Source of the DNA: Duncaniella dubosii
GTDB lineage: Bacteria > Bacteroidota > Bacteroidia > Bacteroidales > Muribaculaceae
Length of the DNA: 64,000 bases
Direction: 5' to 3'
Assembly: GCF_004803915.1 (NCBI RefSeq)
Contig: NZ_CP039396.1
Coordinates: forward strand, 62,001 to 126,000
The position numbers and the translations under genes are program-made. The notes below the pieces were generated by a model. It was not told the origin of the DNA, made no database searches, and worked only from the letters and a program-made list of their open reading frames with translations. Below are positions 18,122 through 64,000 of the stretch, piece after piece. Numbering within the stretch: position 1 is the stretch's first letter; each line of letters opens with the position of its first letter.

Positions 18122-19462
18122 TCACTTCTTCACGTAACGAATTGCATTGGCAGGCATATTCTCACCGTCATGGCCGAAACTTTTCATTGCATCATGCGGC
18201 TCTATCGTCACCTTTGATTCATCGAGTTTCGAACGGTCAAGCCCGAAAACTTCAATGAAAAAGTCATAGACAGCATTGCGCTTGCTCGGGCCGAAGTCAT
18301 GACCTTCGTTCGGGAGATGGATATTCGAGACCTCATCCTTTGCGCCATAGAATCCATAGACACGCTGAAGATAGGGATATTCATTTTCAGGCACAATATT
18401 GGTCCAGTCCTTGCCGTCGGAAACAATGCACATCGGACGTGGAGCGAAAGCGGCTGCAAGCTCGGCATTGGTAGTACCACCGCCGGCACGCATTATAGGC
18501 ATACCGCTTTCACACGGACAGCCGCCATCGAAATAAGATGACAGGCTCACCACCGGACATGAAGCTGTATAGCGCGGGTCGATAACCGACAGGAGCACAG
18601 ACTGCGAACCGCCGCCCGAACCACCGTTGACACCGACGCGTGTAGAGTCCACATCCTTGCGGGCAATCATGAAATCGAGTATCGAGATTCCATTGAGAGC
18701 TTGTATGACATGAGCTTCAGGTTTGTGATGACCTTCGCCACCAACCTGCAAAGCGGATTCACCCCATCCATAAAGGTCATAATCCACACATATAGCTCCC
18801 ATACGCGCAAGTGAGGCAAGGCGCTGCTGCTGAGCGTCGTTGTAACGGCCGTTGCCGAAATGTCCGTTCGGACAGATAATCAGCGGGTGCTTGCCTTTTG
18901 AATCAGGAGCATAAATCGAACCGCACACATAGAGACCCGGAAGAGTTTCAAGATAGAAATTCTGAACGGTATATCCGTCAAATTTACGCACTTTCGAAAA
19001 GACCGGTCTTGCTTCGACACGCTTTGCAAGCGCATCGTCAATGGTAAGAAGCTCACGGACTTCCTGACGGATAGAGTCTCGTCTCGCTTCCCAAGAATCC
19101 TTGTCGGAATAGAGCGAATTGAGCCATGCAACCATCTTGCGACCATCGGCTTCAGTGCGACGCGGATATTCATAACGTTTCAGTTTATAAGTCTTCTCAT
19201 TCTGCTTCACGAACTTAAAGTCAAACGGCATAAGCACATTGGCCAGAGATTCCTCTACCGAATACGGACGGATACGAGAGTCGGCATACGGTAGTACAAG
19301 ACCGGTAGTATCAATGTCATATTTCAATTTGACCTGAAAACGTTCGCTTATCTCTGTGAGCACTTCTCCCAAAGGACGGCGGAACTGGTTTTCATAATTA
19401 TTCTGAGCCATTGCCGGCATGGCTGCAAGCGCCATGCCGAAAATGATAGTTGCTGATTTCAT
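18122..19462 (-). CDS. Secreted alpha/beta-hydrolase esterase with STN-like N-terminus
   Basis: This 446-residue secreted enzyme is most likely a pectin esterase acting on RG-II. A signal peptide (to about residue 19) is followed by an STN-like small domain (about 27-97: RPLGEVLTEISERFQVKLKYD, then YSVEESLANVL). An alpha/beta hydrolase domain occupies about 155-415. The catalytic triad appears to be Ser282 in NGGSGGGSQ, Asp349 in VSDGKDW, and His388 in EGHDFGP. It is the last gene of operon B, three bases after GH78. In the B. thetaiotaomicron RG-II locus an alpha/beta hydrolase in this position (BT1017) was shown to be a pectin methylesterase; the match here is by position and fold. An acetyl esterase is the alternative. 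Confidence 0.75.
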   Translation of the reverse strand: MKSATIIFGMALAAMPAMAQNNYENQFRRPLGEVLTEISERFQVKLKYDIDTTGLVLPYADSRIRPYSVEESLANVLMPFDFKFVKQNEKTYKLKRYEYPRRTEADGRKMVAWLNSLYSDKDSWEARRDSIRQEVRELLTIDDALAKRVEARPVFSKVRKFDGYTVQNFYLETLPGLYVCGSIYAPDSKGKHPLIICPNGHFGNGRYNDAQQQRLASLARMGAICVDYDLYGWGESALQVGGEGHHKPEAHVIQALNGISILDFMIARKDVDSTRVGVNGGSGGGSQSVLLSVIDPRYTASCPVVSLSSYFDGGCPCESGMPIMRAGGGTTNAELAAAFAPRPMCIVSDGKDWTNIVPENEYPYLQRVYGFYGAKDEVSNIHLPNEGHDFGPSKRNAVYDFFIEVFGLDRSKLDESKVTIEPHDAMKSFGHDGENMPANAIRYVKK

Positions 19463-19465
19463 CTG

Positions 19466-22226
19466 TTACTTTATTTTTGAAGAAAAGGTATATTTACCGG
19501 ATTTGACAGTCTTTGCCTGAGTTTCACCCGGAATAATCACGTCTGCCGACACATTGGCCGGAAGAGTCAAATCCAAAGTAAAATCGTCGCCATTGCGTCG
19601 CCAATCGACCTCAACGTCGCCGTAGAGGGTAGCGGTACGTCCTCTGACACTCGTCAGGTCACCCACAACCGAAGGCTCGATTATGAGATGCTGCATTCCG
19701 GGACGGCTCTCGTCAATCCTGATTCCTGCAAGCGAACGGAAAAGCCATTCGTCAATCTGCCCCATCATGAAGTGATTCCATGACGAACCCTGACGGGGAT
19801 CCCACTGCTCGGTGAGCGTCGTAGCTCCGAACTGAAGCTGGAAACCATAGCCCGGAGTGTCGTAATGGTTATGCATTCTATACATGATTGAGTCAAGACC
19901 GTTGTCGGCAAGAGCACGGAAGAGATAGCGGTTACCGACGTCGCCTGTGGTAAGGCGCACGCCGTGCTCACGGATGTCGCCGACAAGATTATCAAGCACA
20001 GCCTGTTTCTTGTCTTCAGGAATCATGCCGAGGAAAAGCGGAAGGGCGTTTGAGGTCTGGCTACCCGTACCATAGTCGGATGTAGCCGGATCAAAATATT
20101 TCTTGTTAAACGCATCGTGCACCTTGTCAGCAATGGCCTGATAGCGCGCTGCATCATCCTTCTTGCCAAGCAGCTCGGCAGCCTTTATGACGTGGATAAG
20201 ATCCATGTAATAATGAGCCGATGCGACAAGGCCGACAGGCGTGTTGCGCGAGAAGCCTGCACGGAAATCACCATAGTCATACCAGTCGCCGAGACCGAAG
20301 TCTATCAGATTGCCGTCTGCACGAGTGCCGAGATAGTCGACATAGGCAAGCATATTGGGATAGTATTCACGTATAAGACTGTCGTCGCCATAAGCTTCGT
20401 AGTACATCCACGGAGCAATAATCAATGTAGCTCCCCATTCGGGTGACTCGGCGAAATCATCCATACCCGGGCCTTCAAACACAACATATTGCGGGGCGAC
20501 AGTCGGCACCATGCCATCGGCTCTCTGGCTGTCAGCTATATCGCGGAGCACCTTCGGATAATACGACGTGAGGTCGTAGTTATACAAAAGCCCCGGCCGT
20601 TTAGATGAACCTGCTCAAGCCATCCGAGCTTCTCGCGGTGCGGACAGTCGGTAAACACTGACTGCATATTACTCCTGACAGCATTGCGTATAAGACTATG
20701 GGCGGCTGTCAACACTTCGCTTGAACATTCAAACTCTCCGCCTTCAGAAGCCGAGTTATAGATGAAACATGATTTGATGTCCTCGATGACAGGCAACCCT
20801 TCAGGATTCGGTTCTCCGGCAAAGACCGCACCCTCGACCTGTATGTAGCGGAAACCGTAGTATGAGAAACGTGGATGCCACGTCTCCGGTTTGTCGCTGC
20901 GGAGTGTGTACGTGTAGTAATGCTGACGGCCGGTCTGTCGCTGATTGGCGGCATTATCGTCAGTGATACTTTCACCTACGACCATCGTAACTTTCTGACC
21001 CGGCTTGCCCTTGAGCGTGATTTCTGGGAATCCGGCAAGATTCTGTCCCATATCAAGAAGAATGGCAGAAGGATCGATGGTCCGCTTTGTAGCCTTGTTT
21101 CCCTTCTCAATTTCATCGGCAGTCAGCTTATGACGGCTTTTGACCGGAAAACGTTCCATAATCTTCACAGGAGGCGCAAGCTGAGGAGTCAGTTTGCCTT
21201 TAGGTGACTGCTGCACTACTACAGGATGCCATTTGCTGTCATCGAAACCGGCTTTATCCCATCCCGGCTGTTCAAGACGCGCGTCATAGTTCTCTCCTCC
21301 ATAAATTGAATGGAAAGTAATCGGGCTTAGGTCATATTTCCAATTGTCGCCTGTCTCTATGATTTCTGACGAGCCGTCGGTATAGCGCACAAGCATCTTA
21401 ACCCATAAGGTCTCAGGACCGAAACCAATCTGAAGTTTGCTGTAACGGTTACCGCGCACCACATTATAGAAACCGTTACCGAGCAAAACACCCATAGCGT
21501 TCTCGCCGGAATGGAGCATGTCGGTAACATCATAGGTGTTGAAATAGACAGTCTTGTCATAATCGCTCCAAAGCGGAGTGAACTCACCATCACCGACTTT
21601 CTCGCCATTGAGTGAAAGTTCATAGTGCCCGAGACCGCAGACATAGACTGTCGCATCAGCAATCTTTTTCGGCAAATCGAATTCTGTGCGGAGTATGATA
21701 CTGCGCGATGCCATTGAGTCGACACGCTCCCAAGCTTCCTTCACTTCAGGTTTCTTCCATTTGTCGTAAGTATAATTGCGACCGTCAGGGAGATTTGCCT
21801 GCTCATAGCTGACAGCGCCGATCCATTTCCCATCAAGAAACTTGCTGTCGGGGGCTATGCGGAACTCAGCAGGATTGCTCCATGCCGATGCCTTGCCCTT
21901 CTCGTCCCAGACCTTCACACGCCAGTAGTAGCGTGTCATCGGTTCGAGACGCGGCCCGGAATAGGCCACAAGCTGGCTCTGTGGAGATTTAATTTTGCCA
22001 GAATTCCATACCTTGGAAGTTTTCTTACCGTCACGCGTGAAGAGCTCAATCTGATAAGCAGACTGCATCGTCCGTTGTCGCCTTTGAGCTGCCAACCGAA
22101 ACGTGGGGTATCGGTGTCGACTGCTAAAGGAGTGTCGGTCATTTCGCATGTCATCCTGCCGACCTCGATTCCCCTTAACGGGAGCGAGGCCAGCAGAAGA
22201 ATTGCCATATAAAGTATTCGCTTCAT
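19466..22226 (-). CDS. GH78 alpha-L-rhamnosidase (two frameshifts)
   Basis: This secreted rhamnosidase is read in three pieces. The first 52 codons (signal peptide MKRILYMAILLLASLPLRG, then MTDTPLAVDTDTPRFGWQLK) stop matching near 22072-22073; one more G restores GDNGTMQSAYQIE. The second break is near 20590-20600, where a fifth G in the GGGG run restores NGRGLLYNYDL. Joined, the protein is 920 residues: an N-terminal beta-sandwich, a carbohydrate-binding sandwich (VYVCGLGHYELSLNG), and the (alpha/alpha)6 barrel with the acid-bearing DCPHREKLGWLEQ. A C-terminal sandwich ends it. That acid motif is the DCPHREK variant rather than DCPQRDE. It stands between the GH143/GH142 gene and the esterase, the place of BT1019 in B. 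thetaiotaomicron as I recall it. Confidence 0.85.
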
Positions 22227-22244: not shown

Positions 22245-25200
22245 TTAGAGGACATCCTTGCAGACAAGACGCTCAAGCGACGGTGCATGGCCGACTTCCT
22301 TGCCGTCGACATAGACACGCAGACCGCTGCCTTTGTGATAGCGCTGACCGTCCTTATCCCAGAGGATAGTGACATTTCGGCCATGATAGGGGACATTGTC
22401 AAGGCAGAACCAGTCCCATTCGCCTTCGGGGACAAGGGGATTGACCTCAATGGTATTGTCGTTGCGCGGGCGCAGACCGACGAGACCGGTTATGACGAGG
22501 TCGTTGAATGTCGAGTGATTATAGTAGCGGCTACGCTCCTGATCACCCTTCAGCCAATAGCCTGTAACCTCGTCGAGATACTCGCCTATATAGGGACGGC
22601 CACGATGGTGCTGCGACTCGACGTAGCGTTTCATCTGAGCGAAATAAGTGCTGTCGGTGACGACCGGATTCTCTTCGGTATTCAGATAGTTGGCAAGTGC
22701 GGTCAGAGTTTGGGCAGAGGCAAATGGCCAGATTGCACCGTCCCATTCGCATTTACCCACACCGCGCGTGCGGAATTCAGGGTGACGGCGCTCGGCAGTC
22801 GTAAGACCATAAGGAGCTGAGAAGCCATTCTCATCATTGAGCTGAAGCCAAGCCTCATCATATTTACCCTTGTCGGGAAGATTGAAATACCAAGGAATAT
22901 AGCCGATGGCCTCGCGTGCCTGTGCGCAAGTGTCGCCTCTGACTGTCTCAAAGAAGGCGTGATCCTTATTCCATAGACGTGACTGCACAAGTTTTTTGAT
23001 TTCTTCAGCTTTCTTCTCGTAAAGTTCCTGTTCATCCTTCTTGCCAAGCTTTTCAGCTATGGAGGCAAGAGCCTTGGCATTGCCATACATATAGGAGTTT
23101 ATGGTCGGGCGCGCATATTTCTTCTTGCGGCCGCCGCTGATGCTTTCCTCCATACCGTCCTGCACATCGCCCTGCCAGTACAGTCCGTTTGGCAGACGGT
23201 GTTGCTCTTCCCATCGGGCATATTCGGCCTTCAGGTCAGGATACATCTTGGCGAGTGCGTCAAGATCACTATCGACAAGGTAACGGTTATAGACTGCATC
23301 AGGATTCCACGAGCTGAACTTCATCATCTTGGCCATAGGCTGACCGTCGTTGCCATGATACCATGTGTTGATGATGCCGTCGAGATACTTAGGGTCGCGC
23401 AGCCAGCGGCTTTCATAGATATGATGGCCGATGGCACATGCAATCAGGTTGTATTTGTCTGCATAGCTACGATCAACGAGGAATTCCGTCATTCCATAGC
23501 CTACAGGAGTATTCTTGATGTGCTTGCGCAGAGTCCACCAACGGTAATAATACATCTCTTCCATATCCTTGTCGGGACATTCGAACAGAGGTATGTTTTC
23601 CTTCATCCACTCCGACGATTCCGAATTGGGAATTGCCTGTGCGATGTTCTCATCCTCCATGTCATTGAAATAATCGGCATGATGTGAAAAATCATCGTAT
23701 TTCAAGACAGATGCAGTGCCGTCAATGTCACGCGACGAGCTCTTGAAGTTTGCGATACGGTAGACGGCCTCCTTGTCTACGTCATTGGCACGGAGCATGT
23801 CGTTGTGCTGGTCGGCCTCAGTATCGACATTGGGGAAATTAGAGTGTGGACCTGTGCGGAATACCACGCGCTCAACCTCCTTGACAGGAGCGAAAAGCAT
23901 TCGTGTAGTCTTCTTTTCTCCGTTGATATAGACTGTCGAATTGCGGTTGTCGAGCGAAAGGTCGACTTTCACATGATATGGCTTTCCGGGTTCGTAGTTG
24001 AGGATTTTGCCGTAGCGCGCTCCACCCTTCGAACGGAATTCTCCTTCCGGCGTGAGGTCAAGACGTGCGCAGGCTGTTCCCTCGTCATCAACGAACTCGA
24101 TTAGCAGGTTGCCATAATCGTTTTGATCGGCCATAAGGTCAAACTCGACAGAAAGCTCACGTGTCGGCGGAATCTTTCGTTCCACTTTCGATATGTCAAA
24201 CGGATCTTTGTCCGCAAGAGTCAGCCATGTTTTCCCATCTTTCTCCTGAAGCGAAACGGGAGCCCATACGGGTGAATAGATGTTCCACATCGTGAGATCG
24301 GAAAGCGACTTGAAATTGCCGAAATTCTCATCGGCATGTCCCGTAGCCACAAGCTCGACAGGGACAGGCACGCGTGCCACCCACATGTCTTCTTTACCGA
24401 CGCTGTATGTCACCCAAAGGTCACCGTCGGGAGGATTCCCGTTGCCTTCCTGAATGCCTCTCACATATTGCGGACCGAACGACTTGTATTGGCCGGCATA
24501 GCGCATAGGCGGCACTTCACCGTGAACAAGATTAAGCGTAGTGTAGTCAAGACCGTCGGAACTGAGGGAGATTGCGAGCGGCCAACGGAATTCCGATGGA
24601 TTATATACGGTGGCATAAGTGCCGTCGCTCAGTTTCTGTCCCCAGATTTTCGCGTTGCTGTTGACAAATCCTTTGGCGCGCTCCACAGGCTCGGCCCATG
24701 TATTGCCTCCGTCTTTGCTCACAGAAGTCAACGCATGTTTCCAGAGTGATGCTATGTCACCGTTGGGGAGCGTGTACCAGCAGAATGCCTTGTATGGTTT
24801 TGCAAGAGGAATCATCGGATCGTTGCGGTCGGCCTCCTCGACCCACTGCATGCGGTAAAGCGGATTGGCGATGATTTCCTCACAAGCTTCACGAAAACCC
24901 TTGTCCTTACTTTTCTTATAGTTGGGATAATTTGTATTCTTCTCGTTGAAGTCGTGATTGTAGTAGATAAAATATATCGGGCCGAACGAGCCGTCCTTAT
25001 AGATCTCACGTACCACGCGTCCGATTCCGTTGCCGTCGTTTGGATCATCCTTGTGATGAAGGGCGATACCATAGTTGCCGATTGCAAGCAGACGGCCTGA
25101 TTTCGACACATAGAATCCGACACGCTGGTGCATAACTGCGTCCTGACCTGAAGCTACGGCATCGATTCCTTCCTTCTTAAAACCGTCGGGGACGGGGTAG

Positions 25201-25568
25201 ACAGGGAAAAGAATCTGAGGAGCACTCCAGTTGTAACCGTCTTCGGAGGTCTGGAGCAGAGTGCGGCCTCCGCCTACGTGTTCGTCGACCGGATTGGAAA
25301 GATAGTGCATGTAGAACTTGCCGTTCCAGTATGCCATCATCGGCTGATGATTGTAGGTCCAGCCGTTATCGTTCGGCGAATAGAGGTCATAGCGACGGTT
25401 GGCACGCATAGTCTGGATATTGTGCACGCCGACAGCCGGCGAAAGTGCTCCGTCGTGACGGTTGGGATTCGAAAGTTTTGTCCCTGTATAATGTATGCGT
25501 TCCTCGGCAGTAAGCCCGAAGGCTGTCAGACAGGCTGCCGATACGAGGACTAATTTTGTCAGCTTCAT
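22245..25568 (-). CDS. GH143/GH142 fusion for RG-II side chain D
   Basis: This 1,107-residue periplasmic enzyme matches the architecture of BT1020, founder of GH142 and GH143. The N-terminal part (about residues 25-410) is a sialidase-like propeller with repeats such as LQTSEDGYNWS and SVSKDGGNTWAEP; in GH143 this removes the acidic sugar Dha. A beta-sandwich linker follows (about 420-620: LLIEFVDDEGTACARLDL, VYINGEKK). The C-terminal (alpha/alpha)6 domain (about 640-1,107: GYGMTEFLVDRSYADKYN, GDVQDGMEESISGG, GVGKCEWDGAIWPF) is the GH142 beta-L-arabinofuranosidase. Together they would take apart side chain D, Araf-beta-1,5-Dha. It overlaps the upstream gene by four bases (ATGA). Confidence 0.88.
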   Translation of the reverse strand: MKLTKLVLVSAACLTAFGLTAEERIHYTGTKLSNPNRHDGALSPAVGVHNIQTMRANRRYDLYSPNDNGWTYNHQPMMAYWNGKFYMHYLSNPVDEHVGGGRTLLQTSEDGYNWSAPQILFPVYPVPDGFKKEGIDAVASGQDAVMHQRVGFYVSKSGRLLAIGNYGIALHHKDDPNDGNGIGRVVREIYKDGSFGPIYFIYYNHDFNEKNTNYPNYKKSKDKGFREACEEIIANPLYRMQWVEEADRNDPMIPLAKPYKAFCWYTLPNGDIASLWKHALTSVSKDGGNTWAEPVERAKGFVNSNAKIWGQKLSDGTYATVYNPSEFRWPLAISLSSDGLDYTTLNLVHGEVPPMRYAGQYKSFGPQYVRGIQEGNGNPPDGDLWVTYSVGKEDMWVARVPVPVELVATGHADENFGNFKSLSDLTMWNIYSPVWAPVSLQEKDGKTWLTLADKDPFDISKVERKIPPTRELSVEFDLMADQNDYGNLLIEFVDDEGTACARLDLTPEGEFRSKGGARYGKILNYEPGKPYHVKVDLSLDNRNSTVYINGEKKTTRMLFAPVKEVERVVFRTGPHSNFPNVDTEADQHNDMLRANDVDKEAVYRIANFKSSSRDIDGTASVLKYDDFSHHADYFNDMEDENIAQAIPNSESSEWMKENIPLFECPDKDMEEMYYYRWWTLRKHIKNTPVGYGMTEFLVDRSYADKYNLIACAIGHHIYESRWLRDPKYLDGIINTWYHGNDGQPMAKMMKFSSWNPDAVYNRYLVDSDLDALAKMYPDLKAEYARWEEQHRLPNGLYWQGDVQDGMEESISGGRKKKYARPTINSYMYGNAKALASIAEKLGKKDEQELYEKKAEEIKKLVQSRLWNKDHAFFETVRGDTCAQAREAIGYIPWYFNLPDKGKYDEAWLQLNDENGFSAPYGLTTAERRHPEFRTRGVGKCEWDGAIWPFASAQTLTALANYLNTEENPVVTDSTYFAQMKRYVESQHHRGRPYIGEYLDEVTGYWLKGDQERSRYYNHSTFNDLVITGLVGLRPRNDNTIEVNPLVPEGEWDWFCLDNVPYHGRNVTILWDKDGQRYHKGSGLRVYVDGKEVGHAPSLERLVCKDVL

Positions 25569-26524
25569 TTTTTATTGCTTGCTTCAATAAGGTTTTTGAC
25601 TACCGAACGCGGAGCGCGGAATATAGTGCCGTGCTTGTGGTCCTTTGGTACGCTCACACTGTCTGTAACATCAGTGAATGTCACAAAGTCCTTTGTCTTG
25701 TGGGCGCTGTAGATGAATTTTCTGTAAGTATCATAATAGATGTAGTAGTCATCTCCGACTTTGGCTACCGACGGGCCTTCGGTGAAAGACTCTGTGAACG
25801 GCTCTGAAGCAGGAGAGTAAGGACCTTCGGCCGACTTTGCAAAAGCCACCTTGATGTTGCGGTTGGGACGAGTATTGTCCTTGACCACCATCACATAGTC
25901 ATCAGTGCCACGCTTCACGAGTGTAGCGTCGATGCAGCTGAATCCCGGATCATAGAAAAGTTTCGGCTCGGAGAATGTATTGAAATCTTTTGTGGTGACG
26001 TAGTAGAGACGATGGTTGTTTTTCTCATCCTCGATGCCAACATCAAATCCGGCATCAACGACACATGAGGCGTATATGATCATGAACTGATCCTTAACAT
26101 CGTCATAGAAAAGTTCGGGCGCCCACAGATTCTGGGTAGATGCAATCGAATCCATTGCCGGAATGCGACGCTGCTCGCTCCAATTGATAAGATCCTTGGA
26201 GCTTGCATAACCGAATCCCGTATCACCCTTCCACGCAATTGTCCACACAAGGTGATAAGTGCTGTCAGGACCGACAACAATCGAAGGGTCGCGCATGATG
26301 TTCATGCCGATTTCTGGCTTGAGCCATGTGCCGGCGATACTGTCCCAGTGAATACCGTCCTCACTGTAAAGGAAGCGCAAACCTTCGTCGGCTGGTTCGT
26401 GGAACGATGTGAACATATATAAATCGTTTTCGGGCTGCGTTTCAGTCTTGTTAGCACCCGAACTACACGAATAGAGGCCAAGACCAAGCCCGACTGTCGC
26501 TATAGCTGCTGCAAATATTTTCAT
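25565..26524 (-). CDS. GH43-like five-bladed propeller lipoprotein
   Basis: This 319-residue lipoprotein (signal peptide and lipobox LYSC near residue 20) has a five-bladed propeller of the GH43/GH32 superfamily. Candidate catalytic residues are Asp in IMRDPSIV, Asp in CIDATLV, and the acid Glu in FTEGPSV, so the usual triad looks intact. Blades can be followed through GLRFLYSEDGIHWDS, GFGYASSKDLINWSE, and HRLYYVTTKDFNTF. In the B. thetaiotaomicron RG-II locus a propeller gene lies next to BT1020 as here; I do not know a settled substrate for it. An arabinofuranosidase or xylosidase activity is plausible. The ATG at 26524 starts the signal peptide directly. Its stop overlaps the GH143/GH142 start. 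Confidence 0.72.
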   Translation of the reverse strand: MKIFAAAIATVGLGLGLYSCSSGANKTETQPENDLYMFTSFHEPADEGLRFLYSEDGIHWDSIAGTWLKPEIGMNIMRDPSIVVGPDSTYHLVWTIAWKGDTGFGYASSKDLINWSEQRRIPAMDSIASTQNLWAPELFYDDVKDQFMIIYASCVVDAGFDVGIEDEKNNHRLYYVTTKDFNTFSEPKLFYDPGFSCIDATLVKRGTDDYVMVVKDNTRPNRNIKVAFAKSAEGPYSPASEPFTESFTEGPSVAKVGDDYYIYYDTYRKFIYSAHKTKDFVTFTDVTDSVSVPKDHKHGTIFRAPRSVVKNLIEASNKK

Positions 26525-26538
26525 GATGGTTAAATTCT

Positions 26539-26567
26539 GTAGGGACACGGCGACACCGCATCCCTAC
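26539..26567. repeat. REP-like imperfect palindrome between operon genes
   Basis: GTAGGGACACGGCG is followed at once by a near-complementary arm ending in GCATCCCTAC. The 29 bases form a hairpin of about 14 bp with three weak pairs in the 69-base gap between the GH78/GH33-like gene and the GH43-like gene. It resembles the short GGGAC palindromes scattered between genes in many bacteria. Confidence 0.55.
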
Positions 26568-26593: not shown

Positions 26594-29500
26594 TTATAAA
26601 TCAAGTCCCGCGTATTTCACACGCTGACGACGCCACGTATATATTGCATGCAACTTGCCGTCTTTACCCTGTATGATACTCGGATAAGAATACTGACTGA
26701 CAGGGCTGTCTTCAAGCGTCATGACATTCTCCCAATGGATTCCATCGTCTGAAACGGCCACACAAAGAGGATTGCGGACACCTTTAGGTGTTCCCGGAAG
26801 AGTTGCGAAATCATTGTAGATAAGCACATGGCGACCGTCTTTGAGAGTCACGGCATCAGTTCCCGAATTATTGTTGGGCATATCGATGAGCGTGACGGGA
26901 GTCCAAGTGTCACCGTTGTCACTGCTCCAGCTTGTCGCAATCTTTGAGTTGCGTGTGCGGCAAAGAATCTGCAGACGGCCGTCGGAATGACGCAGGATGC
27001 TCGGCTGAATCGCATAGATTGGTTCGGGCTCTGTACGGTCGGTGCGTATTGCCGAATCCGAGGGAAGCGCTCCGGCTGTGTGCCACGTCTTGCCTTTGTC
27101 ATCGCTGATTTCAATCCATGCACGCCAGCCGTTGCCTTCACGGCTGCTCGGCGAAATGATACGTCCGTTGATATATTCCGGCTTATTCTTGATCGGACCA
27201 AGGATGCCTTCGGGGAGAGGCTCGCGGTCACTCCACGTTTTTCCCCCATCGGTCGACCGGACTACCCATCCGGTCCAGTCACCCACGCTTGAACCTATCT
27301 TATAGAACAGCATCAGTTCCTTTTCACCGGGAATCTGGAAAAGCACCGGATTCCAGCATGCCTTGCGGCGCGCATTGTTGATATCGCCCTTGAAATGCGG
27401 ACCGACAGGCCCGGCTGTAGCCGGAGTTGTCTCGGCGTTGATGCCTGAAAGACCTGCAAGCTTGATATTGGGGTCATTGAGATCGAATACGCCATCAGCT
27501 GCAATCATAGGCTCGCTCCATTCGGTAGCACCTTTTGGTTTACGGCATACCCAGATCACGCAATCTGGATTGCGCTCCTTTGTTCCGCCAAAAAACGAAG
27601 CCACAAGATCGCCGTTGTCAAGCTCTACGATGGTAGCGCCATGACATTCAGGGAATGAGGCGGTTTCATAGAGGAACTCGTCATTGAGAATACCTTTGCG
27701 CTTGTCGCCCAAGGAGGGATCAACCTTTATGTCAAGATTATATACTCCAGAGCCTACACTCCAGTATGAATTCAGACCTTCAGAACGCATATATTTCGCT
27801 CCCGGGGCTTTCACAGCCTTTTTGTCGGGAGTCGGGACACAAAGCACAGCCGTGGTGTTGCACGGAATCTCGACACGCCATTCTATGTGCATCGGAGTCT
27901 TGACCCAACGGCTTGCAAGCAGGCCGTAAGGTGTGCGGTAGGATGCGTTCACGCTGTCGAGCTGCTGAATCGAGAAGTCGGGTTTGAGAAGAATCTCCTT
28001 GTAGCCCGGCTTAGCAGGATTGAAACCTGCGAGATCCTGATAATACCAGTTCAGATGGTCTCCGAGCATCATGACGTGGTTGTTGCTGTTCATCTTCCGG
28101 CTGGCGGTGTCGCCGTTCCAAAGTTCCCAGATAGTAGTAGCGCCCTTTGAAATCTCGTAGCCGTAGCTCGGATAGGAAGTGTTGGAGGCAAGCATAGCCG
28201 CAACATCGCCGCGTCCGATGCGCGATAGTTCACGCATGAGCCAGTTGACTCCGATGACACCGGTAGATATATGCCCTTTGTTGGTTTCGATTATAGTCTT
28301 TATCAGATTATCGGCCACCGGCTGGCGATATTCTTCGGGCACCATGTCAAATGCGAGCGGCAGCACATTGGCTGTAGCAGTATTGTTGCCGTAGAAAATG
28401 CTGTCGGGATACAGGATATGTGGAGTCTTGACAGGCGAAGTCCCTTTCTTGACAGTCAGGAACTGCCTGTTGAAAGCATCCTTTACCTTGTCGGCATCGC
28501 TTTCCCATGCTGAAGCCTCGGCATCGAGCCCCTGTATGCGGGCAAACTTGGCCATCAGCTGACACATCTTATAATAATAAGCGGAAGCTATCAGAGTGCC
28601 GTCAGTCTTGCGGGCCGGATCCTGACTGTGGATCATATCAGGCTTTTCAGGCGGGACACACCAGTCGCCATATTTGTCGGCCGTGATAAGACCGTCCTTG
28701 TTTGTAAAATCAGTCCTGATATGGTTCATCCACTTCTTCATCGCATCATAATTGCGGATGATTGGCTGCGGATTACCGGTCTGTTCATAAATCATATCTG
28801 ACACGACGGGCAGTGTTGATGACCATGTCATATCGGAAGTGTAGTAATTATAGAACGCCGGAGCGATGTCGGGCAGACAGCCGTCCTCGCGCTGCGACTC
28901 GCGCATGTCGTCCATCCACTTGGCATACATATTGGCATTGTCGAAAAGGAAGTTTTCGCCCCATGTTCCCATGTTGTGGTCGCCTGTCCACGGCTGACGC
29001 TCGTCGCGCTGGGGACAGTCCACGGGCACACCTTTATAATTGCTGGCTATACCCCACCATGCGTTGCGGTGGATAGCATTCATGGTCTTGTTTGAGCTGG
29101 CAAAAGAGCCGTTGTCAGGAAGAGCGTCGTAAACGAACTCTGCCACGATGTCTTCCGGCTTAAGGTCCTTGACACCTGTAACCTCAACAAACTGGAAACC
29201 GTGATATGAGAACTTCGGACTCCACTTCGCTCCATTTTCAGTGCCGTTGGCTATGTAGCGGTCGGTGCTCTGCGCATGACGGAGATTCTCGACATCAAGC
29301 TGGGTGCTGTCAGGCGAGATACGCTCGGAGTAGCGGATAACGACAGTGTCGCCCTTGGCAACATCTGACACTGCTATCTTGACCCATCCGGCCATATTCT
29401 GGCCGAAATCAACCATAAAACGGTCACCGAGCTTGCGGACACTCTTGGGAGTGAGAGTTTTCATGACCTTCATGTTGGGGGCGGTATTGCCACGGAGTGT

Positions 29501-30499
29501 ACCGAAAGGAAGCTCCGCGCGCTGAGCCTTCAGCCATTTCGAATCATCGTAGCCCGGCTTTGTCCAGTCGCCGAGATCGAGGCGGGCATCATAGATTTCA
29601 CCGTCATACTCATTGTTGCTGCGGATAGGCCCTTCGGCTGTGAGACTCCACTTTTCATCTGAGTTGACACGCTGCTTTGTCCCGTCGGTGTACTCGATAA
29701 TCATGTTCATGCGCATCTTCGGATAGCCGAACGTAGGAATCTTGTAAGGCTTATAGTTCTGGCGCATTGTATAGAAACGGCCGTTGCCAAGAGTCACGCC
29801 GACGGCATTTGCCTCACCGTTGCCTTTAAGAAGGTCAGTGACATCGTAGGAATTATAGAGTGTTGTCCGGCGATAGTCAGTCGGAGCGGGCGCGAGCACA
29901 TCGTCGCCAACTTTCTGTCCGTTGATATAGAGCTCATAGAGACCGAGACCTGAAATATGGGCGGTTGCACGCTTGATTTCCTTTTTCTCGCTGTTGAACT
30001 CCTTGCGGAGATAACGGGAACTCATGCGGCTGTGGGAGTCTTCGATATCCCACTCGAACGGGCCTTCCCATCCTATCCAGCGTCCGCCCCAATGTCCTTC
30101 GCCGACAATACCCATCCCCCACTCTGCCTGAGGGCTCCAAGACGAGTCACCACGTGTGGTCGATACTTTCACTTTCCAGTAGCAGCGGGTATTGTCAGCA
30201 AGTTTCGGGCCTGTATATTCGACCCACACCGAACGGTCGGAAAAAACTTTTCCCGAATCCCAGATGTCACCCTGACCAGCTGCGAGCTTTTCGGGCGACG
30301 AGGCAACGAGAATATGGTAGGCTGTCTGCATCACATCTCGGTCAGACGATGTGATTATCCAGCTCAGGCGCGGATTAGGCGTCTCGACATTGAGAGGACA
30401 GACAAGCCCCTCTGTCGTCAGCGAACCGACATTCACACCTGCGCTGACACCTGTGACGATGAGCAATGCAAGAAGCAGGGTTGAAATCCGATACATCAT
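26594..30499 (-). CDS. GH78 rhamnosidase fused to GH33-like propeller
   Basis: This 1,301-residue secreted protein joins two catalytic modules. Residues about 20-920 are a complete GH78: N-terminal sandwiches (ISGLGLYELYINGQKVGDD), the barrel with the acid motif DCPQRDERQPWTGD, GATTIWELWNGDT, and a closing sandwich. From about 925 a six-bladed sialidase-type propeller begins (ECHGATIVELDNGDLVASFFGG), with Asp-boxes STDGGKTW, SDDKGKTW, SSDNGDTW, and SDDGIHW. No FRIP motif is visible, so a true sialidase is doubtful. Rhamnose alpha-1,5-linked to Kdo is side chain C of RG-II, and Kdo is chemically close to sialic acid, so the fusion may remove Rha and then Kdo. That assignment is inference. The first of two consecutive ATGs is used. 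Confidence 0.8.
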   Translation of the reverse strand: MMYRISTLLLALLIVTGVSAGVNVGSLTTEGLVCPLNVETPNPRLSWIITSSDRDVMQTAYHILVASSPEKLAAGQGDIWDSGKVFSDRSVWVEYTGPKLADNTRCYWKVKVSTTRGDSSWSPQAEWGMGIVGEGHWGGRWIGWEGPFEWDIEDSHSRMSSRYLRKEFNSEKKEIKRATAHISGLGLYELYINGQKVGDDVLAPAPTDYRRTTLYNSYDVTDLLKGNGEANAVGVTLGNGRFYTMRQNYKPYKIPTFGYPKMRMNMIIEYTDGTKQRVNSDEKWSLTAEGPIRSNNEYDGEIYDARLDLGDWTKPGYDDSKWLKAQRAELPFGTLRGNTAPNMKVMKTLTPKSVRKLGDRFMVDFGQNMAGWVKIAVSDVAKGDTVVIRYSERISPDSTQLDVENLRHAQSTDRYIANGTENGAKWSPKFSYHGFQFVEVTGVKDLKPEDIVAEFVYDALPDNGSFASSNKTMNAIHRNAWWGIASNYKGVPVDCPQRDERQPWTGDHNMGTWGENFLFDNANMYAKWMDDMRESQREDGCLPDIAPAFYNYYTSDMTWSSTLPVVSDMIYEQTGNPQPIIRNYDAMKKWMNHIRTDFTNKDGLITADKYGDWCVPPEKPDMIHSQDPARKTDGTLIASAYYYKMCQLMAKFARIQGLDAEASAWESDADKVKDAFNRQFLTVKKGTSPVKTPHILYPDSIFYGNNTATANVLPLAFDMVPEEYRQPVADNLIKTIIETNKGHISTGVIGVNWLMRELSRIGRGDVAAMLASNTSYPSYGYEISKGATTIWELWNGDTASRKMNSNNHVMMLGDHLNWYYQDLAGFNPAKPGYKEILLKPDFSIQQLDSVNASYRTPYGLLASRWVKTPMHIEWRVEIPCNTTAVLCVPTPDKKAVKAPGAKYMRSEGLNSYWSVGSGVYNLDIKVDPSLGDKRKGILNDEFLYETASFPECHGATIVELDNGDLVASFFGGTKERNPDCVIWVCRKPKGATEWSEPMIAADGVFDLNDPNIKLAGLSGINAETTPATAGPVGPHFKGDINNARRKACWNPVLFQIPGEKELMLFYKIGSSVGDWTGWVVRSTDGGKTWSDREPLPEGILGPIKNKPEYINGRIISPSSREGNGWRAWIEISDDKGKTWHTAGALPSDSAIRTDRTEPEPIYAIQPSILRHSDGRLQILCRTRNSKIATSWSSDNGDTWTPVTLIDMPNNNSGTDAVTLKDGRHVLIYNDFATLPGTPKGVRNPLCVAVSDDGIHWENVMTLEDSPVSQYSYPSIIQGKDGKLHAIYTWRRQRVKYAGLDL

Positions 30500-30538: not shown

Positions 30539-31984
30539 TTAGTTCTTGGAAGGAAGATTTTTCCAATCTTTTCCGATGTAGTCCTTGGCGGAATCCACCG
30601 CTATGAGCACACGGTCATTACCTGCACCGTGGCCACCGTCATACTGGAAAGGTGTAACCTTGCTGTCAAATTCACCGATATACTCAAGATTTCCGTCTTT
30701 CGGGTCATACCACCATGCGTTTTTCTTTTTTCCTGAAATTTTTGTGAGATCAATCTCCATCGGACGATTTGTATAGTTGTAGACAAGCAGATAGTCATTG
30801 CCACGGGTGGCAATGAGACGGTCGTAGCGAGTGCCGTTCTCACCTGCGATTATGCTCTGGTCGGGGACACGCTCAAAAAACGGGAAAGCAAGGATAAGAT
30901 TCTTAAGGTGCTTCATCTGATTGAAACCGGGATCTTTCATACCTTCATACCATGTCTTGACAGCTCCGTAGCCACCGACGTTGGCCGGTTTGAGCATCTG
31001 CATGATTGAATTGTGTCCGTAGGTATGGCCGAAAGCCCCTGCAAAAACAGCCCAGTATGCGTAGCGACGCACATCGGGAGCTTTCCACCAAGGCTGCGAA
31101 GGATCATGTAGACCCTGAGGGATTTCCTCGTAACTCGGTTCGGCATCAAATATAGGCTTGCGGGGCTTCATGGCAAGACCGGCTTCAACATAACGCCAGT
31201 TGTCCTCAGCCTGTGCAGCCTGTGCGGTATCGTCGCCGTCGCCACGCACTTGGTCATAGCGGCGATGACCGCTCTGGAACATATTGAAGTCAAGCCACTC
31301 TGCATTGTGAAACCAGTTGATTGACGATGTGCGGCCGAAAGGATGGTAGCTCATGAGATGGTTCTTGTCAATCGACTTGATTGTACGTGCCATCGCATTC
31401 CACTGGTCAGGATTTATGTCGCCCTTGACATCACCGCCCATGACCCAGATGATATTTGGAGAATCCTTGTAGCGCTCGGCAAGGAACTTGCCGTATGCCT
31501 TGGCATCGTCTACGCTCATGAGTCCGGCTTTCACAAGGCCACCCCAGATAGGGACCATCGCGATGTATATACCCTGATTTTCAGCCTGCTTGATGATATA
31601 GTCCATGTGATCCCAGTAACCGTAGACTCCTTTTTTGTTGATTTCAGAGAAGTCCCAGCCGTCGGGATTTGAAAGCTGTCCATAGAAATTGATGGCCGGT
31701 ACACCGTTGATGGTCTGCACCTGCACCACATTGTAGCCGGCCTCGCGGCAACCATTCAGATAGTAGGAAGCCTCGGAGCGGTCAAGACGTTCAGGCAGGA
31801 GCCAGCCTGTCTCACCCATCCAGAAGAATGGAGTGCCGTTTTCATGCTGAAGATAAGTTCCGTTGTCGGAGACACGCAATTTTCCATTGTCCCAAGGCTT
31901 ATAAACTTTCTTCACAGGGTCCTGTGCATAGATGCCTGACATCGCCGCAATGAAGAGACAGATGAATAAGCTTAATTTTTTCAT
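30539..31984 (-). CDS. GH140 apiosidase
   Basis: This 481-residue secreted enzyme matches BT1012, the founder of GH140, which cuts the apiose-galacturonan link and frees side chains A and B from the RG-II backbone. After a signal peptide (to residue 20) comes a TIM barrel (about 30-380) and a small C-terminal sandwich (about 395-481) of the putative collagen-binding type. The acid Asp185 in WVMGGD and the nucleophile Glu282 in FDAEPSYE sit two residues before the catalytic Asp187 and Glu284 that I recall for BT1012, an offset consistent along the protein. It lies downstream of GH95 in operon B, behind a 225-base gap with a long inverted repeat. Confidence 0.92.
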   Translation of the reverse strand: MKKLSLFICLFIAAMSGIYAQDPVKKVYKPWDNGKLRVSDNGTYLQHENGTPFFWMGETGWLLPERLDRSEASYYLNGCREAGYNVVQVQTINGVPAINFYGQLSNPDGWDFSEINKKGVYGYWDHMDYIIKQAENQGIYIAMVPIWGGLVKAGLMSVDDAKAYGKFLAERYKDSPNIIWVMGGDVKGDINPDQWNAMARTIKSIDKNHLMSYHPFGRTSSINWFHNAEWLDFNMFQSGHRRYDQVRGDGDDTAQAAQAEDNWRYVEAGLAMKPRKPIFDAEPSYEEIPQGLHDPSQPWWKAPDVRRYAYWAVFAGAFGHTYGHNSIMQMLKPANVGGYGAVKTWYEGMKDPGFNQMKHLKNLILAFPFFERVPDQSIIAGENGTRYDRLIATRGNDYLLVYNYTNRPMEIDLTKISGKKKNAWWYDPKDGNLEYIGEFDSKVTPFQYDGGHGAGNDRVLIAVDSAKDYIGKDWKNLPSKN

Positions 31985-32209: not shown

Positions 32210-34654
32210 TCACTTTCCGAACAGCGTATAGGTTTCCCCAGCTTTTGTGGGGAGATCGTAGAGATAGGTTTTCTTCAGTTCGACAGGATTGAGCTTTGCT
32301 TCCGGGCTGATAATAGGCGCGAGACCTTCGTTGACAGCAAACATAACATTGCTGTTGCCACCTTTGGCAGCCTTAAGTCCCTTACCTTTGAGTGGAGTGA
32401 GTGTGCGCAGACGGCAGTTTCCTCCAAGAGTCGATTTGACGGTTACTTTTTCGATACGGCCGTTTTTCCATGACATGTCTATCACAAATCCGCCACGGGC
32501 TACGAGACCGGTAATCTCGCCGTCGGGCCACACGGAAGGAAGAGCGGGAAGAAGATAGATGAATCCGTCATGGCTCTGCATCAGCATCTCGGCGATACCT
32601 GCCACACAACCGAAATTTCCGTCAATCTGGAACGGCGGATGCGCGTCAAAGAAGTTGGGATATGTCCCTCCCTTTTTCTTTTCATTACGCACGAGAGTCA
32701 GCTGGTCGGTGATCAGTTTATAGGCATGATCGCCGTCAAGCATGCGTGCCCACAGACAAACCTTCCAGCCCATGCTCCATCCGGTCGAGGGGTCTCCACG
32801 ATGAATGAGCGATGTGCGGGCCGCATCAAAGAGTTCGGGAGTTCGGAAGGGAGAAATCTGATTCGAGGGGAACATGCCATAGAGGTGTGAGACATGACGG
32901 TGGTTGTCCTCGGGATTATCCCAGTCTCCCATCCACTCCTGAAGCTGTCCCCACTTGCCTATTCGCATCGGCGAGATTTCGTTGACACGCTTTTTAAGAT
33001 GATTGGCAAATTCTTTGTCTGTATCAAGGATCGTAGAAGCCGTAATGATATTGTTCCATAGCTCGGTCACAAGCTGATTGTCCATCGTAGCGCCGGCGGT
33101 AGTTGTCGCGTTGTGACCCTTGGGCGCATTTTCCGGCGAATTGCTCGGAGCTACGACAAGCATTCCGCTCTGTGGCTCGTAGACCATAGTCGCATCAAAA
33201 AATTCACCGGCACCCTTCATGATAGGATATGCCTCACGGAGAAATTCAATATCGCCGGTGTGGAGATAATGTTCCCAAAGGTGACGGCAGAGCCATGCGC
33301 CTCCACTCATCCACATGCCCGAAGGAGCATTGTCAATCGCACCGGTGACGCGCCAGATGTCAGTGTTGTGGTGGAGCACCCAGCCCGGAGCGCCATACAT
33401 GATTTTAGCAGTCTCTGCACCGGTCTTGCTCACTTCCTTGATGAGACGGAACAGCGGTTCGTTTAGCTCTGTAAGATTGGTGATCTCCGCTGGCCAGTAA
33501 TTCATTTCAAGGTTGATGTTGCAGGTATATTTGCTATCCCACGAAGGGAACATCTTGTCGTTCCATATACCCTGAAGGTTCGCGGCCTGACCGCCCGGCT
33601 GAGAACTGCTGACAAGCAGATAACGGCCAAATTTGTAATAGTTGGCCACAAGTTGGTTGTCATGGGTATCCTTGAATCGTTCGATGCGGATGTCGGTCGG
33701 AACATCGGCATACTTGTCAGGACCGAGGTCGAGAGTCGAAGTGCCTATCTGCTTCTGATAGAAATCGACATGCTCTTTCTTCGCCTGTGAGAAAGGCTTG
33801 GTGACAGCCTTGGCAAGATAAGCCTTGCTGCGTGCTTCCTCATCTCCTGTGATGTCAGTATAATCGTTAAAATTTGTAGCGATTGAAGTATAGATGACAG
33901 CCTCATCGGCGTTCTCGACTGAGATCACCCCATCGCTTGTCGACATGCGGCCACCCTTCGGGACAGCAGTTACACGCCCCTGAAACTCTACTTTACCTTT
34001 GAGGCCCTCGTGGTTCGAGCTGACTCCGCTAAGAGTGATATCGTTGCCTTCGGAGGCAATCATCACATCGGGATGGGGTGAAGTGAGTGAGGCGTTGAAT
34101 GTCACACTGCCGGGCTTGTCGGCAGTAATGCGGGTAATCACGACCTGATCTGGAAAAGACGTAAAGGTTTCACGAGTGAAATTCACACCGTCGACCTTAT
34201 ATTTCACAACCGTGCGGGCCGAGTCAAGACTCAGTTCACGGTAGTAGTCTTCATAGCGCGTATGACCGGGGAAAGTTATACGAAGGTCACCGAATGGCTG
34301 ATATGGCATACCTTGATTTTTATGAGACTTCACATGAGCTGTAGCCATGTCCTGAGCCTCACGATACTTACCTTCAAACACGAGCTGGCGAATCTTTGGA
34401 ATCCACTCCAGTGCATCGGGATTGGCATTGTTGTTCGGCTGGCCGGCCCAGATTGTCTCTTCGTTGAGCTGAATCTGCTCTGCTCCCGGATTACCATAGA
34501 CCATGGCTCCGAGACGACCGTTGCCAAGAGGCAATGCCTCGGTCCAGACCTGAGCCGGTTTGTCGTACCATAACTTGTGTTCCTGCGACGCTGAAGCATC
34601 CAGCGCCATCATTGCGATTGCGGTGATGATTAGTTGTTTCGAAAGTACTTTCAT
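32210..34654 (-). CDS. GH95 alpha-L-galactosidase/fucosidase
   Basis: This first gene of operon B encodes an 814-residue secreted inverting enzyme. GH95 members remove alpha-1,2-linked L-fucose or L-galactose; in RG-II the likely target is the terminal L-galactose of side chain A, as for BT1010. The N-terminal sandwich starts with LWYDKPAQVWTEALPLGNGRLGAMVYG, and the (alpha/alpha)6 barrel holds CNINLEMNYW (the two Asn that activate water), QLQEWMGDWDNPEDNHRHVSHLYG (acid Glu), and QIDGNFG (conserved Asp). ATG 34654 gives a clean signal peptide; the longer frame from 34693 would start upstream of the promoter's -7 element. The leader is only about 14 bases. Confidence 0.9.
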   Translation of the reverse strand: MKVLSKQLIITAIAMMALDASASQEHKLWYDKPAQVWTEALPLGNGRLGAMVYGNPGAEQIQLNEETIWAGQPNNNANPDALEWIPKIRQLVFEGKYREAQDMATAHVKSHKNQGMPYQPFGDLRITFPGHTRYEDYYRELSLDSARTVVKYKVDGVNFTRETFTSFPDQVVITRITADKPGSVTFNASLTSPHPDVMIASEGNDITLSGVSSNHEGLKGKVEFQGRVTAVPKGGRMSTSDGVISVENADEAVIYTSIATNFNDYTDITGDEEARSKAYLAKAVTKPFSQAKKEHVDFYQKQIGTSTLDLGPDKYADVPTDIRIERFKDTHDNQLVANYYKFGRYLLVSSSQPGGQAANLQGIWNDKMFPSWDSKYTCNINLEMNYWPAEITNLTELNEPLFRLIKEVSKTGAETAKIMYGAPGWVLHHNTDIWRVTGAIDNAPSGMWMSGGAWLCRHLWEHYLHTGDIEFLREAYPIMKGAGEFFDATMVYEPQSGMLVVAPSNSPENAPKGHNATTTAGATMDNQLVTELWNNIITASTILDTDKEFANHLKKRVNEISPMRIGKWGQLQEWMGDWDNPEDNHRHVSHLYGMFPSNQISPFRTPELFDAARTSLIHRGDPSTGWSMGWKVCLWARMLDGDHAYKLITDQLTLVRNEKKKGGTYPNFFDAHPPFQIDGNFGCVAGIAEMLMQSHDGFIYLLPALPSVWPDGEITGLVARGGFVIDMSWKNGRIEKVTVKSTLGGNCRLRTLTPLKGKGLKAAKGGNSNVMFAVNEGLAPIISPEAKLNPVELKKTYLYDLPTKAGETYTLFGK

Positions 34655-34674
34655 GGAAGATAATTTTGGGTAAA

Positions 34675-34706
34675 CAAAGATAGTGTTTTTCATTCATTCC
34701 TACAAA
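34675..34706 (-). promoter_or_regulatory. Promoter of operon B (GH95 to esterase)
   Basis: On the minus strand, TTTG (34703-34706) is followed after exactly 20 bases by TATCTTTG (34675-34682), a perfect consensus. The start would be near 34668, so the mRNA leader is very short. It is the only good minus-strand promoter I find across the enzyme locus, which supports one transcript for the seven genes downstream. Confidence 0.82.
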
Positions 34707-46400: not shown

Positions 46401-46718
46401 ACTGTCGGCAATCTCCATGCTGCGCCCGACCAGACGCCACCATTCGGGCGAAAGCTGAGGGGCTTTTCCTTCATACTGCGCACCGGCCTCTACCGATTTG
46501 ATAGGCATGAGATACGTTCCACCCAGCCCGACCTGTTTCATGGCCTCAAGGTCAGCCTTTATGCCTTCCTCTGTAACCGCACCATACATCCAGTACCAGA
46601 AACACCACGGATTGGCCTCGAAAGGAGGATTGGCAAAAGCCCGCTCAAGTGTCGGACCGGCCGACACATTGAGAGCGAGCATTGCGGTTACAGATAATAA
46701 TATGCTGCGTAATTTCAT
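43482..46718 (-). CDS. GH106 alpha-L-rhamnosidase
   Basis: This 1,078-residue secreted enzyme has the GH106 plan of BT0986: a TIM barrel from the N-terminus (NPWCFWYWMYGAVTEEGIKADLEAMKQ split around residue 36, then MHICDGFALAGGPW), inserted sandwiches, and a C-terminal galactose-binding-like domain (VVLNLDGLRDVATVKVNGKE). Conserved acidic positions lie in HVDSWECGSQNW, LFSAECVSPTMV, and IIQAEGFTELRGTW, any of which may include the calcium ligand and the catalytic Glu pair. In RG-II this family removes L-rhamnose alpha-1,2-linked to arabinopyranose in side chain B. It lies between a GH2 gene and the acetylesterase. Confidence 0.9.
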   Translation of the reverse strand: MKLRSILLSVTAMLALNVSAGPTLERAFANPPFEANPWCFWYWMYGAVTEEGIKADLEAMKQVGLGGTYLMPIKSVEAGAQYEGKAPQLSPEWWRLVGRSMEIADSLGLKLGMHICDGFALAGGPWISPAESMQKVVTADTIIKGGKVENLILPIPENYKGYYEDIAILAMPVKGRKIAERPKITVGNVDASVPEGKGVNIDDKGVIRSSVPCWIQYEYSESVDVDNVEIILSGNNYQAHRLKIYASNDGKYFQEVKQLQPARQGWQNTDAQSTHAIPPTKAKYFRFDWTPAGSEPGSEDMDAAKWKPNLKIKDIVLSGEPKLNQWEGKAGLVWRVAPETTSTEIPAELCVKKEEIIDLTSQLRNGSLSASLPEGEWRIMRIGHTATGHTNATGGAGLGLEADKFSRAAVAKQFDNWFGKAFEKVNPEIARKVLKYMHVDSWECGSQNWSDNFADEFKRRRGYDIMPYLPLFAGVPVDNVETSEKVLRDVRTTIAELVVDVFYEVLAGKAKEYDCLFSAECVSPTMVSDGMLHYQAVDFPMGEFWLNSPTHDKPNDMIDAIHGGHVYGKNIIQAEGFTELRGTWDETPATLKTLLDRNYALGINRIFYHVNTHNPYLDKKPGMTLDGIGLFFQRDNTWFADGGKGLTDYMRRAQALLQYGTPVTDIAVFTGEEIPRRAVLPDRLVPSLPGIFGAERVESERVRLANVGQPLRTKPVGVSHSANMADPEKWVNPMRGYNYDSMNKDALLRLAKAENGCLTLPGGASYRVLVLPMAHPLMPDTTLSPEVRAKVDELVKAGVVVPQLPYVNDDFSAYGLERDVKVPENVAWTHRRHDGDNVDLYFISNQEEQPREFTASFRVSGRVPELWNPMTGRIDRNLDWTSDNGRTDVKMNLDGAESAFIVFREPTQTTSGKAPAVRKTDWMLDGSKWTVEFKTTGRKIENTELFDWTSASDDDIRYYSGTAVYLTTFKAPKFSKGDRVVLNLDGLRDVATVKVNGKECGIVWTAPYTVDITDAVKKGRNTLTIDVTNTWANALLGADNGKAPFDGIWTNGKYRRPDTTLIPAGLIGPVSVSVISEK

Positions 46719-63914: not shown

Positions 63915-63961
63915 GATGTTGATTCGAAATATTGGAAAAAATGAAAGTTCAGACCGCTTTA

Positions 63962-64000
63962 TCAGCGTGCGAGAGGAAGCCATACACTCATTTCAGACTT
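63962..64000 (-). CDS. C-terminal end of a probable GH127 enzyme
   Basis: Entering from the right edge on the minus strand, one frame reads KSEMSVWLPLAR and stops at 63962, 47 bases before the GH141 start. GH127 (DUF1680) proteins typically end in YYAWANRG-EMxVWL or close variants, which this tail fits. In B. thetaiotaomicron the gene next to GH141 is BT1003, a GH127 enzyme acting on aceric acid in side chain B. Only 12 residues are visible, so this rests on motif and position. Confidence 0.4.
   Translation of the reverse strand, partial: KSEMSVWLPLAR

Follow-up and report, generated by a model that had tools for sequence, protein, structure and literature searches.

A gene of Duncaniella dubosii (Bacteroidales, Muribaculaceae), located in a stretch of 64,000 nucleotides (contig NZ_CP039396.1, positions 62,001 to 126,000; hereafter the window), fuses a rhamnosidase module of family GH78 to a sialidase-like propeller in one open reading frame (ORF). 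We consider it very likely that the product is a secreted, probably periplasmic and exo-acting two-module enzyme, which would strip first the rhamnose (Rha) and then the 3-deoxy-D-manno-octulosonic acid (Kdo) of side chain C of rhamnogalacturonan II (RG-II). According to a passage of PMC12282258, this side chain is Rha-alpha-1,5-Kdo, joined alpha-2,3 to the backbone. The GH78 half would remove the terminal alpha-1,5-linked L-rhamnose by means of E500 and E792, which would expose the alpha-linked Kdo. The propeller would then hydrolyse the Kdo off the galacturonan backbone, with Y1272 as the nucleophile and R1181 and R1242 as the carboxylate-binding residues. The two halves may be fused because the propeller can act only after the GH78 half.

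A preliminary description of this DNA had predicted just these two activities, Rha removal by the GH78 part and Kdo removal by the propeller. The prediction is supported by the locus, the co-occurrence of the two halves, the fold, the retained catalytic residues and the printed record.

Modules and active sites of the fusion protein

The fusion itself, as proposed in the preliminary description, was confirmed by the domain scan, which found both modules complete and within one ORF (Table 1). The GH78 half matched PF17389 at 7.5e-108 together with four GH78-associated Pfam domains, and it scored 510 bits against 6i60. The positions of 3w5m to which its two glutamates align are, as we take it, the general acid and the general base of SaRha78A; the acid/base mechanism of GH78 is an inverting one. 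With its six-hairpin (alpha/alpha)6 fold and both catalytic glutamates retained, this half is a member of GH78, and rhamnose release is predicted for it.

The C-terminal half could be assigned with confidence to the sialidase fold; its sequence identities to the structural matches listed are about 12-23%. It carries four Asp-box-like motifs, three of them full (STDGGKTW, SDDKGKTW and SSDNGDTW) and one shortened (SDDGIHW). Among the 31 ORFs scanned in the window, only the fusion and the neighbouring orthologue of BT_1020 gave a BNR/sialidase-type Pfam match. No PF24067 match was obtained for the fusion at E 0.001 in the Pfam scan, although the neighbouring BT_1020 orthologue has this domain, and a search of the genome brought up no second match to the fusion's propeller. 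Sequence searches found no solved structure of the propeller subfamily, the best match being NanC with 59 bits.

The propeller shares with the GH33 sialidases (1w8o, NanB, NanC and others) the fold, the Asp-box repeats, a tyrosine and two of the three arginines of the triad, the second and the third. The preliminary description had named missing active-site residues as a point that would speak against Kdo hydrolysis. This stands for the arginine of the FRIP motif and for the Tyr-activating glutamate, which are replaced by an invariant histidine and an invariant glutamine, and it does not stand for the tyrosine and the two arginines, which are kept. By its defining features the propeller is built on the GH33 fold yet is no ordinary GH33 sialidase.

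The earlier remark that no FRIP motif is visible was borne out, as the motif was found in none of the 43 propellers of our alignment A2. H953 stands 10 residues ahead of the blade-1 glycine, which is the place of the FRIP arginine in ordinary sialidases as judged by spacing. Likewise, Q1165 precedes R1181 by 16 residues, the spacing of the glutamate to the second arginine in ordinary sialidases, and the glutamate partner of the tyrosine is retained in none of the 43 propellers. The alignments with NanB and NanC pair Q1165 with the glutamate, R1181 with the arginine and Y1272 with the tyrosine. An hhalign run of the propeller profile against five ordinary sialidases of the order (98.7%, global) paired the sialidase tyrosine with Y1270, a variable residue (Y in 33, F in 9 and L in 1), and gapped the glutamate stretch differently. 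We prefer Y1272 over Y1270 as the candidate nucleophile because of its invariance, its fit to the NanB and NanC alignments and its gapless spacing to the last strand. The position of the acid/base is uncertain; the loop in question is three residues shorter in the propeller than in the sialidases according to hhalign. The candidates are E975, present in all 43 sequences, and D979, an aspartate in 42 of them and an asparagine in two fusions of a further alignment, A1 (P0061 and P0075).

The replacement of two hallmark residues would also fit a propeller that is a non-catalytic binding module and positions the GH78 half on RG-II. This seems extremely improbable to us, as the substitutions show no drift but are invariant, and the positions that never vary in the 43 divergent sequences include His, Glu, Gln, two Arg, Tyr and further polar residues. 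Moreover, several genomes carry the propeller by itself, and in G006 it has outlived the neighbouring GH78 barrel.

Spread and co-occurrence of the two halves

The fusion is real and widespread. A search of genome contigs, which used patterns from this sequence and so favoured close relatives, found 40 loci, and at 31 of them GH78 and propeller lie in one ORF. The other nine comprise a locus that starts near a contig end (L084), three with other fusions (L085-L087) and five with weak matches (L088-L092). An apiosidase gene lies within the fetched stretch at 27 of the 31 fusion loci (not at L060, L062, L080 and L081). Named carriers include B. cellulosilyticus, B. xylanisolvens XB1A, B. faecis and B. 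salyersiae. In a protein search with the propeller part, PF17389 and PF13088 occurred together in all of the best 120 of 2382 matches, and Duncaniella, Muribaculaceae and Bacteroides are among the names in the matches listed. Because only hits between 0.55 and 1.75 times as long as the query enter this search, it cannot show standalone propellers.

Co-occurrence was analysed in 295 genomes of the order. PF24067 is the propeller domain of BT_1020, which we take to be GH143, and 16 genomes had a strong match to it (286 bits or more); G008, G011, G170 and G250, with best matches of 20-28 bits, were counted as having no strong GH143. A propeller of at least 165 bits was found in 15 of these 16 genomes versus 18 of the 279 others (Fisher p 2.6e-15, with kinship ignored and the cut-offs set after the lists had been seen), 20 of the 53 genomes with a propeller match having fallen below this cut-off and been left out. 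At 270 bits or more, 13 genomes had a propeller, all within the set of 16. Orthologues of the GH78 half were present in 15 of the 16, with 43-58% identity (the window's own excluded), the exception being G156. Other full-length GH78 matches, the paralogues, had at most 38% identity, and one partial match, in G018, had 41%. The halves are fused in eight of the 16 genomes (G000, G015, G057, G101, G120, G145, G271 and G280) and form separate adjacent genes, GH78 followed by the propeller, in two (G193 and G200); in each of the remaining six, one half is missing or the two do not adjoin on the contigs seen.

Several observations weigh against the proposed removal of Rha and Kdo by one such enzyme. 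The fusion is not obligatory, since G098 and G183 carry the GH78 half on another contig than the propeller. G018, a GH143 genome, has the GH78 half and no propeller above about 42 bits, and in G156, also with GH143, the propeller is divergent and no match to the GH78 half exceeds 37%. In G006 the propeller lies beside a GH78 remnant only: the ORF has lost the barrel and retains a signal sequence, a few N-terminal residues resembling GH78 and the GH78 C-domain, and the genome carries an orthologue of the GH78 half on a different contig. Relatives of the propeller stand alone in 18 genomes that have no strong GH143, so the wider family extends beyond RG-II, and a NanA/DapA-family aldolase was found by BLAST near only four of these 18, one match being weak (25% identity). 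As the FRIP arginine is absent and a glutamine stands for the Tyr-activating glutamate, ordinary GH33 chemistry cannot simply be assumed. Finally, it is solely the physical linkage that points to the fused GH78 as the enzyme of the locus which cuts Rha-Kdo.

The RG-II locus and its counterparts in Bacteroides

The fusion lies in an RG-II utilization locus (Table 1). We take 5msy, to which its upstream neighbour is related, to be the BT1012 apiosidase, and 6goc to be a BT1017-type pectin methylesterase. Passages in the literature name BT1012 as apiosidase and BT1017 as methylesterase (PMC7939467), 3cih as BT_1001 (PMC7263609) and 5MQM as BT_0986 (PMC6828813).

Table 1. Positions of the fusion gene, its modules and residues, the neighbouring genes and the linked operon (positions in the window unless a contig or stretch is named)
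Feature	Position	Strand	Basis or remark
GH78-propeller fusion, 1301 aa, signal-peptide-like N-terminus	26594..30499	(-)	ORF and domain scan
GH78 module, residues 26-898: Ig-like, N-terminal, concanavalin-like, six-hairpin catalytic and C-terminal domains	27806..30424	(-)	Pfam; alignment to solved GH78 chains 6i60 and 3w5m
Sialidase-fold propeller, residues 940-1301, PF13088	26597..27682	(-)	Pfam, fold comparison, Asp-box-like motifs
E500	29000..29002	(-)	aligned to 3w5m chain position 636
E792	28124..28126	(-)	aligned to 3w5m chain position 895
H953 (propeller H14)	27641..27643	(-)	invariant 43/43
E975 (E36)	27575..27577	(-)	invariant 43/43; acid/base candidate
Q1165 (Q226)	27005..27007	(-)	invariant 43/43; at place of Tyr-activating Glu
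R1181 (R242)	26957..26959	(-)	invariant 43/43; second Arg of sialidase triad by alignment
R1242 (R303)	26774..26776	(-)	invariant 43/43; third Arg of sialidase triad by alignment
Y1272 (Y333)	26684..26686	(-)	invariant 43/43; paired with sialidase Tyr in NanB/NanC alignments
GH140 apiosidase-like (PF13204), directly upstream of fusion	30539..31984	(-)	Pfam; 749 bits to 3kzs/5msy
GH43-like, directly downstream of fusion	25565..26548	(-)	Pfam
BT_1020 orthologue: N-terminal propeller (PF24067) and GH142-type barrel	22245..25568	(-)	1810 bits
Second GH78 gene, two overlapping ORFs in different frames	19466..22149	(-)	ORF list, Pfam
Orthologue of 6goc	18122..19462	(-)	sequence match
GH95	32210..34693	(-)	domain/sequence match
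GH106, BT_0986 orthologue	43482..46718	(-)	1631 bits to 5mqm
GH78, orthologue of 3cih (BT_1001)	59790..61994	(-)	1164 bits
GH141, orthologue of 5mqp (BT_1002)	62091..63983	(-)	1020 bits
Five-gene operon, own genome	C1:1736217-1741997 (L136 9218-14998)		some 1.6 Mb from the window
Five-gene operon, relatives	L113 5752-11612; L114 4990-10781; L137-L140, L142		L142 without Fe-alcohol dehydrogenase

The orthologue of BT_1020 next to the fusion follows the same plan, in that a propeller acting on a 3-deoxy ulosonic acid is combined with an exo-glycosidase for the capping sugar. Its GH143 propeller presumably acts on 3-deoxy-D-lyxo-heptulosaric acid (Dha). Its propeller is N-terminal and of PF24067, whereas that of the fusion is C-terminal and of PF13088, and the substrate pairs would be arabinofuranose-Dha versus Rha-Kdo. 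In the comparison with BT_1020, the A2 profile of the propeller reaches 5mqr only weakly (0.0003). Like the two halves of the fusion, the BT_1020 type is also split into two genes in some genomes (G098, G183 and G057). The function of the GH142 part of BT_1020 is described in a passage of PMC7263609.

In essence, Kdo removal from RG-II has already been reported for Bacteroides by secondary sources. RG-II degradation is stated to require a "Kdo hydrolase (GH33...)" (PMC11214529), Kdo hydrolase is listed among the GH33 activities (PMC9120202), and side chain C is described as removable with the bacterial glycanase of Ndeh 2017 (PMC11288761). These three passages name no gene for the Kdo hydrolase; we infer that it is the counterpart of the fusion described here.

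In the RG-II loci of Bacteroides, the fusion also has its two modules in one ORF and GH95 and GH140 as neighbours, and several of these loci hold the methylesterase, the second GH78 and the BT_1020 type as well. The fusion of B. faecis MAJ27 is 60% identical to that of the window over nearly the whole length (778 of 1304 positions). The host differs, being Muribaculaceae-like here, and the nearest named proteins are from Duncaniella. In the window the fusion lies directly between GH140 and GH43, all on one strand, while four other loci (L069, L070, L072 and L077) have their BT_1020 side on the opposite strand. The counterpart in B. thetaiotaomicron is probably BT_1013, a number that follows from gene order, as the next after the BT_1012-type apiosidase. 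BT_1019 was considered as well and rejected, because the gene order in the four loci puts a plain second GH78 beside the BT_1020 type. BT_1019 thus answers to the split GH78 of the window, and the fusion follows the apiosidase.

The two ORFs of the split GH78 overlap at 20536-20587; in relatives such as L119 the gene has a single frame, and the frame change in the window means either a pseudogene, broken here, or a sequencing or assembly error. This second GH78 is central to an alternative, which we regard as unlikely: the propeller would be the Kdo hydrolase, but the main target of the fused GH78 would be a different rhamnoside of RG-II, such as one in side chain B, and the second GH78 would cut Rha-Kdo. 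The locus holds three GH78-type genes plus one GH106, and BT_1019 is listed as a characterised GH78 rhamnosidase, with no substrate given in that passage (PMC6828813). The four loci named above place the second GH78, and not the fusion, near the methylesterase and beside the BT_1020-type gene, and in some genomes the propeller and the GH78 half are non-adjacent. However, the fusion-type GH78 is fused or adjacent to the propeller in ten of the 16 GH143 genomes, and it is the second GH78 that is frame-split in the window.

Two further regions of the window were noted. At 35357-39172, a PelZ-like pectate lyase extends over two overlapping ORFs and the adjoining GH2 gene is apparently shortened at its start, possibly through further frame errors. 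Next to the RG-II genes, the opposite strand carries a YhcH/YjgK/YiaL (DUF386) gene at 17421-18029; sialic acid operons often contain a member of this family.

Standalone propellers and other fusions

Of the 13 standalone copies whose genomes have no strong GH143, 12 fall into one supported set (17 rows, 99/99) in a tree of the 43 propellers; this set also holds L022 and L023, both of GH143 genomes, and three rows that belong to other phyla. The remaining copy, L016, groups with the RG-II copies. Of the 18 propellers that stand alone in a genome with no strong GH143, five have a symporter nearby. The nan-like aldolase operon had been considered as a general proof of ulosonic acid release, and this argument is weakened by the low aldolase count; three of the four cases came from the first four stretches examined, and some stretches are short (L162 has only 4.6 kb). 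In three genomes without GH143 (L124 672-5542, L125 8486-13368 and L126 6576-11485), a standalone propeller is found together with a symporter, a NanA/DapA-type aldolase and a protein of about 435 aa, which gave no Pfam match in the two clusters scanned.

The sialidase fold, and these few standalone relatives next to a symporter and an aldolase, which fit any ulosonic acid, would be compatible with a propeller of the fusion that hydrolyses Dha, Kdn or a sialic acid instead of Kdo. Such a specificity is in our view highly improbable, as Dha would already be served by the GH143 propeller next door. The FRIP arginine and the glutamate are replaced, the neighbours are pectin enzymes, and for RG-II a Kdo hydrolase has been placed in GH33 in print (PMC11214529, in the passage quoted above).

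The propeller also has other fusion partners. In G098 and G183 it is fused to a xylose-isomerase-like barrel instead of GH78, and in G120 GH78, propeller and barrel share one frame of 1543 aa. Several RG-II loci (L118 8585-13213, L113 16501-18438, L114 15901-17889 and L122 15615-16517) have this TIM barrel (PF01261), either as a fusion with the propeller or directly downstream of it, and the barrel-bearing protein of L113 has a lipobox-like start. As a guess, the barrel might be an epimerase or isomerase of a freed sugar. In Verrucomicrobiales and Pirellulaceae, a related propeller is fused to a sulfatase (L085 5016-7427) or to a part with FG-GAP repeats (L086 3728-6802 and L087 787-3825).

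A putative operon for Dha catabolism

In G098 and G183, the stretch of the RG-II locus that separates GH142 from GH28 holds genes for an aldolase of the DHDPS family, an SSF symporter, an Fe-alcohol dehydrogenase, PdxA and a DUF1537 kinase, with a LacI regulator beside them in G098. D. dubosii has the same five-gene operon far from the window (Table 1). DUF1537 (PF07005) is rare in the order and was found in 13 of the 295 genomes, namely in nine of the 16 with strong GH143 versus four of the 279 others (p 1.8e-10). All five genes occur together in seven of those nine (G000, G006, G057, G098, G101, G183 and G193); G200 has four, lacking the dehydrogenase, and G156 has two, both stretches ending at or near a contig end. 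The four DUF1537 genomes without strong GH143 gave no match to the operon proteins of L113 in a comparison by BLAST only, with no Pfam scan. PF07005 was found in none of the eight named Bacteroides genomes carrying the fusion. The operon is not universal, as seven of the 16 GH143 genomes have no DUF1537.

DUF1537 kinases and PdxA2 belong to the D-threonate pathway. Based on this pathway and on general chemistry, we read the operon as one for Dha catabolism via D-threonate. After uptake, the aldolase would split Dha, and the products would be pyruvate and a C4 aldehyde acid with stereocentres matching those of D-threonate. The aldehyde acid would then be reduced to D-threonate, phosphorylated by the DUF1537 kinase and oxidised by the PdxA-type enzyme, giving dihydroxyacetone phosphate (DHAP). 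Kdo would give D-arabinose; hence the operon speaks for Dha and not for Kdo. A limited literature search, confined to listings, brought up no account of a route from Dha via D-threonate to DHAP.

A broader proposal, which we put forward tentatively as a possibility, joins these points. The PF13088-type subfamily with the invariant blade-1 histidine and a conserved IQP motif may release 3-deoxy ulosonic acids by a changed apparatus, with His for the FRIP arginine and Gln for the Tyr-activating glutamate, and may thus form a catalytic class apart from the GH33 sialidases; some RG-II degraders, including D. dubosii, may then catabolise the freed Dha through the dedicated five-gene operon.

Implications

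Overall, the natural splitting and the co-occurrence of the two halves show that both belong to one pathway, and an RG-II enzyme of Bacteroides is extended to a Muribaculaceae-like lineage. The kind of enzyme is already known; it is the operon and the altered active site that merit bench work. From the replaced catalytic residues one can predict how the sialidase fold would have been retuned from sialic acid to Kdo, and the operon gives a testable answer to the fate of one rare RG-II acid after its release.

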